Shown piece by piece: positions 30,297 to 44,931 of a DNA stretch of 44,931 nt. Position 1 is the stretch's first letter; each line of letters opens with the position of its first letter. Origin of the DNA: Ectocarpus siliculosus (taxonomy: Eukaryota > Sar > Phaeophyceae > Ectocarpales > Ectocarpaceae). The notes beneath the pieces are model-generated. The model had not been told where the DNA came from, did no database searches, and was given only the letters and a program-made list of their open reading frames with translations. The position numbers were made by a program, and so were the translations under genes. The stretch covers positions 3,125,580 through 3,170,510 of the forward strand of contig FN649727.1 of assembly GCA_000310025.1 (NCBI GenBank), in the 5' to 3' direction.

Positions 30297-33200
30297 ATGG
30301 ACGATGAGTGGTCTACGGAGGCGGTGTGTACGGCGCTCATTGGTGCTGGCACGGTGCTCTGCGTGTTGAGGCATCTTGCGCGGTCGGTCTTGGGCACGAA
30401 CGGCAGGATTACAATGCGGGGCAAACACTGCCTGGTCACCGGCGGCAGCAGCGGCATCGGGAAGGAAGTGGCAAAGGTGCGCGCTAGCTAGTAGTGCGCA
30501 CCGCTCACACAAGGCAGTTCGTCGGTGATGATCCCAGCGGCTTGCTGCCGGGTCGGATGTTGCTTGAGATAGACGCATCATCACGTTGCACTGAAGTACC
30601 AAGATTGAACGAAGGGGGTGTACCTCTTTCTCTCCGGCCCATGATAGATACATGTAGTGACTGCTAGTCTCAGTTGATACCTCGCATAGCGCGAAGAGGG
30701 AGTGGAGGATTCCAGAATATCTGTCGTTGAATTCTATTGACTTGCGGACCCCTCGGGGCCAGTGCATTTGAGTGTACCTTTTTAGGGTAAGTTAACCTGT
30801 GACCACGGGAATCGACCGAGTCGAGTGTTGGATCAGTACGGACATACGAAGGTACTGGGTAGAGAGAGATCGGAACGGTTTTTAATGTGAAGACAACAAC
30901 AACAACAACAACAACTGCTGTTTATCGAGGATGCCAGCGCGCTTGCTTGTTCTCTGGGGACACCGCTGAATGCTGAAACCCACCGGTGCTCCGCCGTTTC
31001 CCGTCGCCGAATGTCCCCTTTACGCAGCAACTAGCTCGCGAGGGAGCCCACGTGACGATTGTGGCGCGTCGACAGGAAGTTCTCGATGGTGAGATCTCGC
31101 AATCCTGTGATCTGTGGTCTAGATACGGGGTGCAGAAGCCTCTCACTACAGCAGTAGTTCCTTGGATTCGTTTGTACGGCCTCGAATAACCAGCTGCTTG
31201 TTTCCTCAGGTAGGCATAGGCCGGTGCATAATGCTGTAGCACCCACTACTAGCTGCGCTTATCTGGCTGACCAACAGAGTCATCCGTCCTAGCGGAGAAT
31301 AAACCAACGCGTCGTGTCTGTTTTGTAGACAATGTTCGAGAGGACTGAATCACAGTCACCTCCTATTCCGTGCACCTGCCCCAAAGGTACAGAGCAACGG
31401 CTTCGTTGTGACATAAGCTTCGGTTCTCTTGTTCGTGTTTGGGAGAACCGCAGTTGCATCATCCCCTGGGACATAGCAGGCATTTACACGTCGGGGCACC
31501 ACTCTTTCCTCTTGGGCACTCGCTATCCAGACTCACACCCTTTTCTTTCGTGTCCTTTCAGTGGCCCAGGTGGAGGTTGAGGCCTGTCGAGAGTCGCCCG
31601 ATCAGATGGTGCAAGCGATCAGCGTCGACGTGGGGGACGCTGAGGCGGTGAAGGTTGCCATGGGCGCGGCGGTGGCCAAGCAGGGGGCGGTGCAGGTGAT
31701 GGGCGGTGTGTCGCGAAAGCGTAGCGGCAGCAGCAGCAGGAGCAACCAGTTTTTGTCGGGATTCTGTCACTGCTGTTCCAGCCGTGCGTGTGGCTTTTGT
31801 GTCGTTCCATTGCACGGCACCTATCAGAGCCCGTAAAATTGTGTCACTTAAGGGTGGTATCCGCGCGGGCTCCCTCCCCCTGATAGCGAGTTACAGCAAA
31901 TGTTAATGTTGCCCTGTCGACAATCCCTTTCGTATGCATAGCATAGGGCCCCAATTCTGCGCAATGTAGTCCACAGTCCGTAAACCGATTCTGCAGAGGC
32001 GCCGATCCATCAACCCCACGATGCTGCCGTTGTGCCATTCGTCGCTGCCTTCCTTCCGGCGTGTCAACGAGGGTGCTTACTGCCTCCGGCCACGTCCAAA
32101 GTAGGCAATAAACTGCACAAACTTCTGATTCATCCTTGCCTCTAAAAAAAGGTCTTGGCGAACTGTGCCGGATTCGCCATCGCAAAAGAGTTCGACCAGA
32201 TGGAGATGGGCGACTTCGAACGCCTCCTCCGCGTCAACACCCTCGGGTCGGCCTACGTCACGCGGGCACTCCTGCCTCCAATGAAGGCCGCGGGCGGCGG
32301 GCGAGTCCTCTTTACGTCGTCGATGGCCGGCCAGGTGTGGTCCTATCGGCGTCTTTTCTCCTGAGGGTGAAGAGTCGAATCTTTGTTCCTCCAATTCACG
32401 ATCTACTGTAGAGTCTCTCCTTTCTTCTCAGACGCGACAGTTGCTGCCCCCCCCCCCCCCCCACTCCTGGATTCCGAAAGACACACACACGCGCATGGTC
32501 TGTATCAGGAAGGAGAGTGGACCCTGTTGCCCAACCTCCTCCGCAGTCCCCCTGTCGGGGGAGGCTGCTGGCTGGAAGCGCATTCACTTTTTTTTTGGTC
32601 GCTCTACAAGGTTGGCGTGTTGTCATTGGTCGGCAGTTGTAGACAAGAAACGCACACACATGTGCATTTTCCGGCAGGTGCACGTGAGCAGCAGACACCG
32701 TTTAGGCAGCAGTCATGCGGCGCGCGTTAGTAGGTGTCGTGACACGTTGAACGCTGGCTGCGAAACCCGCGGCCAGCACACACCGCTCGTTCCCACCGAA
32801 CCATGCGCGCAGGGTTGTGCTTTGATGTCATTAGTCTTCTTACAAATTGTTTTTGATCTGAAATGGCTCCATTTATTTTTCTTCTTTTTCTTTCCCGCAT
32901 TTTCCTGCTCTCTCGGCGCTCCTCCGCCCCCGTCTCGATGCCTGACAGCGCAGCTTTTCTTTCCTAAGATACTCTTCTCGATAGTAGTTCCGATTCTGCG
33001 GAGCTCTCTGTTGCACATTGCAAGCTGGGCACACTGAGGGTTAGCACACCCCGCGTTGGGCATGCACTTATCATCGATCGACGACGTGGTGGGNNNNNNN
33101 NNNNNNNNNNNNNNNNNNNNNNNNNNNNNNNNNNNNNNNNNNNNNNNNNNNNNNNNNNNNNNNNNNNNNNNNNNNNNNNNNNNNNNNNNNNNNCATTTTG

Positions 33201-36009
33201 CAGGGGGGCCGATCCATCAACCCCCCGAGGGTGCCGTTGGGCCCTTTGTCGATGCCTTCCTTCCGGGGGGTCAAAGGGGGGGGTTATTCCCCCCGGCCCC
33301 TTCCAAAGTGGGCAAAAAACTGCCCAAACTTTTGATTTATCCTTGCCTTTAAAAAAAAGTTTTGGGGAACTGCGCCGGGTTTCCCTTCTCAAAAGAGTTT
33401 GCCCAGAAGGGGAAGGGGGATTTTGAACCCCTTCTTCGGGTCAACCCCCTGGGGTGGGCCTATGTCCCGGGGGCCTTCCTGCCTCCAAAGAAGGCCGGGG
33501 GGGGGGGGGGGGTTCTTTTTATTTTGTGGATGGCCGGCCCGGGGGGGTCCTTTTGGGGTTTTTTTTCCGGGGGGGGAAGGGTGGAATTTTTTTTCCTCCA
33601 ATTCCCGATTTACTGGAGGGTTTTTCCTTTTTTTTCAGACGGGACAGTTGGTCCCCCCCCCCCCCCCCCACTCCTGGATTCCGAAAGACACACACACGCG
33701 CATGGTCTGTATCAGGAAGGAGAGTGGACCCTGTTGCCCAACCTCCTCCGCAGTCCCCCTGTCGGGGGAGGCTGCTGGCTGGAAGCGCATTCACTTTTTT
33801 TTTGGTCGCTCTACAAGGTTGGCGTGTTGTCATTGGTCGGCAGTTGTAGACAAGAAACGCACACACATGTGCATTTTCCGGCAGGTGCACGTGAGCAGCA
33901 GACACCGTTTAGGCAGCAGTCATGCGGCGCGCGTTAGTAGGTGTCGTGACACGTTGAACGCTGGCTGCGAAACCCGCGGCCAGCACACACCGCTCGTTCC
34001 CACCGAACCATGCGCGCAGGGTTGTGCTTTGATGTCATTAGTCTTCTTACAAATTGTTTTTGATCTGAAATGGCTCCATTTATTTTTCTTCTTTTTCTTT
34101 CCCGCATTTTCCTGCTCTCTCGGCGCTCCTCCGCCCCCGTCTCGATGCCTGACAGCGCAGCTTTTCTTTCCTAAGATACTCTTCTCGATAGTAGTTCCGA
34201 TTCTGCGGAGCTCTCTGTTGCACATTGCAAGCTGGGCACACTGAGGGTTAGCACACCCCGCGTTGGGCATGCACTTATCATCGATCGACGACGTGGTGGG
34301 CAGACCCTCTTCTTCCCATGACTCTCTTTTCCCCCTACCTCGCCGTCTATACTCTCGCTGCCGCACGGTCTCACTCGTTCATCATCTGTCTTCCACAACA
34401 TTCACACCAATATTCCGGTCTGGACGCCGTGGACACTGTTTTAGGTATATTCGACTCTTCTTCTGTGAGAGCCACCGCGCCGCACACACTCTCTCTGCCT
34501 CGCATTTTAATCGATCGACACCATGGATGGATAGACACTTTTACAACTACCTACCTACTCCTCCCACGACTCCTCCACCAAGCCTTCTCTCCTCTCCTCG
34601 TCACTGTCTATCGTACTCACTCGCTCATTGGTCTTCGACTTCATAAACTGCTCTCATGGTTGTTCTGCTCTCGTTGTCATCGCGTACATCTACATATATG
34701 CATGCAATGCGTTGATCTCCTCTTGGAAATATTCCGATTTTAAACGACCAACAAGAAGACAATCGATTCTCTCCGTTCGGCGGCGGCGCGAAGCGCCCAT
34801 TACCCGACAATCTACCATAATCATTTGGGGACGACGGACCCACAGGCAGGGTGCACTCTGTGTGTTTGTCGTTGATGGCACTCAACCTTCAGCAGTGTCA
34901 GACACACAAGGCATTGCTGCGTTCGTCCTCGTTCCGGCCTACATCAGACACGTCACGGTAGATATACTCATCATGGCGGCGGCGCGGTAAGTGCCAGTAG
35001 CAAATTAAAAGCATTCTCTTCTTCCAAATGTAGATGCATGTAGTCTAGATGCAACGCCCGGCCTTCTCCATTCAGAATGCAACACAGCAGTGGTGAGTGC
35101 TGTTTTCACCTATCGCCTGGCCTCTTGCACTCCGTATTGACCTTTGCCTTGGAATCGCTCAGTTTGGGCGGGGGCGCGAAAGCGCCATAGCTTTGTATCT
35201 TGTTCCAAGGACGCAGTGAGTTTTACAGAGCCAACCAACCCCGCAAGCAAGCGTGTTTGCTCGGATCACCAAGGTCGCCCGGCTTCTGAATACTACGCCC
35301 TTTTATCTCTCCCTCTCTCGCCTTCGGCAAGGTCTCAGCGCACCGCACAGCAGTAGTAGTCGTTTCGTGTTTCGTCGCTCTCGCCAGGCCTCCGATCGAT
35401 CGACCGACTTACCCCCGTGCCTGTAATGCGGGTGCCACGCAGTCGGGAAGCTTCGGCTACGCCGCGTACAGCGCTTCCAAGTTTGCGCTAGTCGGCCTGG
35501 CCCAGTCCTTGCAGATGGAGGTGGGTGGACCGTTCTTGCGTTTTATCGTTAGGGGGTGGGGGGGGGGTGTACTCATAGTCGTGCATGCCGTAGTCGTTTG
35601 ACCATTGTTAGGGGGTGGGGGGGAGGGAATGACGACGCAAGGGGAAATGGTGTTTTTCGTGACGTCTGGGGTTCTTTCTTGTCGCCGCGTACTACAGCTT
35701 TTGCTGTGCTCGATGATTTGATGAGGAGAGGACTTTACTGGCTGTTTGACAACGCCCTGCTCATAATGGGGGCTTTGACTGCGCCGTTACTACCCCTTGC
35801 AATTAACTCGTCTTGCGCGCCGAGGAATTCAGGTGCGCAGGCTTGTACGTAGCGTGTGCAAGCACATGGTGGACCACCAGGCCACACCCTGATAGTCTCC
35901 AATAGCTCAAACGCAGATGGATCGCCTCATGGTCAAGTGCCAGGTGTGGCGATAGACGGGTGCGCACGTGGTTTTACACTTGGCACACGGCCGTGATTCT
36001 CCCTTCCTC

Positions 36010-44646: not shown

Positions 44647-44931
44647 AAGTGTGGCGTTAGAGTCACATTGGTGCGCGTTCAGAGACAGAGAGAAGTCCTG
44701 TACTACCCAAGCCAGGCACTTCGCACAGCAAGATCAGCGACAGCGATATGTAGTTCAACAAGTGTTGAGCAAAAGCGGCAGCGCGGAATTCTGGCGAGGG
44801 CTGTCGTCAAAGGAGGGCGTTTTAAGCTCACCAGCGACCGCAGCGCCATCCCGCCCGATGCATCCCGCCACCTTGCCATCGTTTGTTTCCCGTCTGACGC
44901 CTAGGCAACTTCGTCCCCCCCCCCCCCCCCC
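44647..44931. other. Intron sequence to the right edge, ending in poly-C
   Basis: Presumed intron of the IQ-PH gene. I see no exon. The window ends in about 17 C, which may mark low-quality sequence or a coming gap. Confidence 0.35.

Follow-up and report, generated by a model that had tools for sequence, protein, structure and literature searches.

The two copies of an 1107-bp segment that flank a 100-N gap in the window (the whole analysed stretch of Ectocarpus siliculosus DNA, 44,931 nucleotides of contig FN649727.1 in assembly GCA_000310025.1, positions 3,125,580 to 3,170,510) are most probably one segment drawn twice. In this false duplication, Sanger-type read(s) garbled by slippage at a poly-C run would have left two contig ends unmerged (rough probability 0.94). 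Judged from the sequence and its regularities, the locus was confirmed as an assembly artefact and not a biological feature, and the scaffold is 1207 bp too long at this place. A previous inspection of the letters alone (the sequence-only reading) had already called the duplication an unmerged contig overlap, and this claim is now supported by the edge-to-edge overlap, 647 identical bases, a substitution rule and all four of the further loci that were targeted. That reading had missed the cause. What the present analysis adds is a probable one, namely slippage at poly-C, together with its recurrence in the assembly.

The window contains a single N run of exactly 100 bases, a placeholder gap at 33094..33193. 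The left copy (31987..33093) is the end of the left contig; it appears to be correct and carries an intact exon of a short-chain dehydrogenase (SDR). The right copy (33194..34300) is the start of the right contig and the false second copy in the scaffold; neither copy nor the gap was assigned a strand. As the earlier reading had described, the 1107 bp are shared across the gap at a constant offset of 1207, and they align without indels. The identity at this offset climbs above background near 31987 and continues up to the gap. When the 3-kb flanks were compared by BLAST, the left flank aligned to its last base and the right flank from its second base, as is required of an unmerged dovetail. 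The end of one contig repeats the start of the other as far as the gap edges on both sides, which is the anatomy of an unmerged overlap or homotype false duplication. All 95 mismatches fall at the start of the right copy, within its first 460 bp (33194-33653, 79.3% identical), and the remaining 647 bp of the two copies are identical. The corruption noticed earlier is real, but its extent had been put at 476 bp (to 33669); the mismatches span 460 bp, and the rest is a C17 run at 33653-33669. The intron had been described as inflated by about 1.2 kb, in agreement with the scaffold excess of 1207 bp.

The wrong bases follow a simple rule. In the garbled part of the right copy (33194..33653, minus strand if the read ran leftwards), 94% of the 95 mismatches (90/95 in the script that compared several loci) equal the +1 or -1 neighbour of the true base. 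The corresponding value in 2000 shuffles keeping the substitution spectrum was 60% on average (s.d. 4%, maximum 77%). The wrong base agreed with the -1 neighbour in 78% of the mismatches and with the +1 neighbour in 71%; agreement was weaker for the ±2 neighbours and at background for those at ±3. Bases standing between two identical, different bases (Y-X-Y) were changed in 53 of 87 instances, 51 of them to Y, and 4 of 213 bases with at least one identical neighbour were changed. These counts and the indel-free alignment bear out the earlier description of bases replaced by their neighbours without a change in length, followed by identity. The mismatch density was flat over the garbled 460 bp, at 7-12 mismatches per 46 bp. 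We also fitted a logistic model that treats every call as the true sequence summed with weights over shifts from -2 to +2. In ten-fold cross-validation it raised the log-likelihood from -323.0 to -177.1; of the 95 changed bases it predicts just 49, and it makes false changes at 14 of 365 others. In this part of the window, shifted copies of the true sequence are the source of the calls. Garbling also created a spurious G16 run (33497..33512, plus strand), the Gs being interrupted at the matching place in the left copy. We know of no mutation process that produces the observed substitution rule.

The intact exon in the left copy (32152..32334, plus strand; exon 4 of the sequence-only reading) is bordered by AG and GT, and its translation matches adh_short (PF00106, E 8.4e-12). 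Neighbouring exons of the same SDR lie on the same strand near 30435, 31570 and 35440, and from about 36180. A partial protein joined by hand from the exons gave many SDR matches; by these domain and protein matches, the gene is a short-chain dehydrogenase. It is likely to be KDSR (3-ketodihydrosphingosine reductase), as suggested by a motif which we take to be typical of KDSR and by a match to TSC10 (8jat). In the PDB search with the partial protein, TSC10 was among the matches but far from the best, other SDRs scoring higher, and NCBIfam KdsR gave 86.5 bits on the partial protein against a cut-off of 400.

In the garbled exon copy (33359..33541, plus strand), 39 of the 61 codons are changed, 21 non-synonymously and 18 synonymously. 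The splice sites are lost at the matching positions: GG stands in place of the donor GT and AA in place of the acceptor AG, with an AG persisting one base on. The false second exon 4 proposed earlier does exist as an open reading frame, but with its splice sites spoiled and no Pfam family matched at E 0.001 it is the wreck of an exon. The exon and its surroundings were equally affected (41/183 vs 54/277 bases changed). The exon changes numbered 8, 13 and 20 at the three codon positions (n=41), and the Y-X-Y contexts 8, 12 and 14; since these contexts also favour the third position, the third-position excess is partly one of context and was not read as selection. From the neighbour rule, the absence of indels and the fact that the exon was not spared, we infer that the differences between the copies are sequencing errors and not variation.

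The garbling begins at a long homopolymer and lies on one side of it only. The left copy has a C16 run at 32447..32462 (plus strand), the putative slippage site, and the counterpart in the right copy is the C17 run (33653..33669, plus strand), the first base of which is itself a mismatch. This last mismatch, at 33653, is the base touching the C run; on the other side of the run, 0 of 631 positions differ. The left contig crosses the same C16 run cleanly. As the garbled part is located to the left of the run, the read presumably ran leftwards. Because the corruption sets in at the run and its density does not change over 460 bp, it points to slippage at the poly-C rather than to general poor quality. 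A sum of slightly shifted copies with an abrupt onset at a homopolymer and unchanged length is what would be expected from polymerase slippage in Sanger sequencing.

The proposed course of events is as follows. Leftward read(s) through the C16-17 run, perhaps a single one, would be the source of the right contig's first 460 bp. Polymerase slippage in the C run would yield products displaced by one or two bases, and base calls past the run would therefore reflect neighbouring peaks lying on top of each other. This garbling would then spoil the overlap, and the assembler would leave the two contig ends unmerged, which may be the reason for the gap. The scaffolder would finally place these ends side by side with a 100-N placeholder, drawing one segment twice. 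Close to where the left contig ends lies an interspersed repeat some 260 bp long (32829..33089, no strand assigned), also present at 10 or more other places on several contigs; it is a second possible reason for the break. A search of the organism's own genome (189.5 Mb, 492 contigs) with the 1107-bp query returned at least 17 matches, the counts being lower bounds: the two copies, 10 repeat places and five short, weak matches. At least 10 repeat places match positions 843-1103 of the query only, with 75-83% identity and E 3.9e-29 or better, and end at 1098-1103. As the left contig ends four bases past the best of these matches (query 1103 of 1107), the repeat may have helped the break.

The same arrangement was found at other poly-C runs. 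A search for C20 on the plus strand of contig C1 gave 27 distinct runs among the matches listed (first 100 places), which reach up to 2.59 Mb. At least four pairs of runs lay within 1.3 kb of each other, and all of these were fetched (L030-L033). In all four, an N run (100, 100, 100 and 38 bases) is flanked by an overlap. The flank alignments cover 633, 405, 85 and 57 bp with 72, 68, 74 and 81% identity, the two short ones being made up partly of the C run, and they stop no more than 5 bases from the left gap edge and no more than 13 from the right. As gaps are present in three of the four alignments, length is not always preserved. The garbling lies past the run when viewed from each contig body, and in L030 and L031 it is reciprocal, with the left contig affected on the run's right side and the right contig on its left side. 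The wrong base equals a ±1 neighbour in 61/62 and 107/110 cases in L030, 11/13 and 106/110 in L031, 21/21 in L032 and 10/12 in L033, counts in which the script took the copy with lower adjacent-base identity as intact and so leans towards the garbling reading. The small sets of L031 (11/13) and L033 (10/12) do not rise above the shuffle maximum of 0.92 (500 shuffles).

The control comprised 8 of the 19 C20 runs without a close partner, each taken with about 800 bp on either side, and six of these adjoin N. The run lies within 25 bases of N in L035, L038, L039 and L041, and a smear extends from the run to N in L036 and L040, being milder near the run in L036. No N and no smear were found within about 800 bp of the isolated runs of L034 and L037. 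The idea that only runs reading as G in the read direction smear was dropped, as L030, L031 and L036 are smeared to the right of a C run. The window itself starts directly after N and ends in a C17 run (44915-44931), the next base of the contig being N (at least 1790 N), another poly-C break. The stretch GTCAATGGTCAAACGACTACGGCATGCACGACTATGA is common to L032:671-850 and L038 (left of C25) and stands directly before the C23 and C25 runs. It suggests that a repeat element ending in poly-C spreads break points.

A sample drawn without regard to C runs comprised the window and 21 pieces of contig C2, each 10 kb long, in total 217 kb of known bases with a GC content of 54.6%. The ten 200-bp intervals with the highest adjacent-base identity fall into three places: the garbled part described here, L026 and L018. 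The latter two (L026:2965-3109 and L018:1825-1991) are smeared contig ends, which start at a G16 and a G21 run, respectively, and extend to N; no matching second copy was found for them within the fetched stretch. A C/G run of 14 or more bases occurs within 500 bp of 6 of the 15 N edges, about 0.74 being expected from the 22 runs in 217 kb, two of which (G16 of the window and C14 of L026) are garbling products themselves. Several long C/G runs in the sample are crossed cleanly, and there is no smear at the G22 that adjoins the L018 gap on its right edge. Among the six gaps with at least 50 bp on both sides, an edge-to-edge overlap was present only at that of the window, so most sampled gaps are of other kinds, and part of the long N runs in the sample may be something other than gaps. 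Next in adjacent-base identity after the three smears is L016:9001-9350, which was set aside because it looks like a natural C-rich tandem repeat. Its tandem-like C-rich units with TTGGCAACGACGTTGTAAAACAA-type segments occur also beside the C21 run of L039 and are perhaps a repeat family carrying poly-C.

Other explanations of the locus were weighed against these data. Towards the end of a Sanger read, peaks broaden and run into one another. The same false duplication could thus have arisen with garbling by an ordinary late-read loss of peak resolution, the end at the C run being a coincidence. The position of the garbled part at a contig end would suit such decay. However, mismatches do not become denser with distance from the run (7-12 in every 46 bp), the boundary is the very base touching the C run, and the arrangement is repeated at other C/G runs, so we consider this course very unlikely. 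Slippage before sequencing, during amplification or cloning, or another platform reading a mixed template would yield the same superposed calls. Yet a length-preserving superposition over 460 bp would best fit capillary traces, and there is scarcely any probability left for such an origin.

A real tandem duplication, or allelic copies, of which one has decayed while gene conversion kept 647 bp identical, would account for two adjacent copies, and the abrupt step from 79% to 100% identity could mark the edge of a conversion tract. Against it, the substitutions obey the ±1 neighbour rule, 460 bp at 79% identity contain zero indels, the copies stop at both gap edges and the exon is not spared. 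Moreover, unrelated loci show the same garbling, and in each of those examined it adjoins a C/G run and N. We regard a real duplication as having almost no chance of being correct. Real duplication, allelic copies and gene conversion, like plain end-of-read decay, were rejected on the substitution rule, the lack of indels, the flat density and the onset. A false duplication by slippage at the poly-C run is hence the reading retained here.

Beyond this locus, there is a good chance that the fault is systematic, poly-C/G tracts genome-wide leaving paired false tandem duplications that are garbled past the tract, and reciprocally so where both contigs pass it. A very crude extrapolation from at least four cases in the first 2.59 Mb of C1, with plus-strand C20 pairs alone, gives about 290 in 189.5 Mb. 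If true, gene models would contain such false duplications in the form of doubled exons and overlong introns. Users of the assembly should treat the tandem exon, the G16 run and the additional 1.2 kb of intron as spurious; other gap-flanking copies near its C/G runs are suspect. The signature has three parts: ±1-neighbour substitutions of even density on a single side of a homopolymer, a high identity of adjacent bases, and an overlap to both gap edges; it allows such faults to be located from the assembled letters, without reads.

Our limited literature search gave no work evidently concerned with false duplications driven by poly-C. For Ectocarpus, the relevant passages of PMC6418280 give 54% GC and introns of 740 bp, and those of PMC7386250 state that the v1 assembly was built with Sanger reads. 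An error-driven false duplication is termed 'homotype' in PMC9516828, in which sequencing errors are described as a minor source. Like the case there, read errors here seem to have left one sequence under-collapsed and drawn twice; here a gap lies between the copies. That work deals with vertebrate assemblies, and its passages on this class mention neither poly-C slippage nor reciprocal garbling. Its class also uses a read-depth criterion, whereas the present locus was assigned by anatomy. For Sanger slippage stutter, the account in PMC10643650 describes additional peaks immediately preceding or following the true one, which lead to miscalls, and names homopolymers as a setting. The stutter there consists of minor peaks in traces, whereas here it would have reached the deposited consensus, with about one-fifth of the calls wrong.
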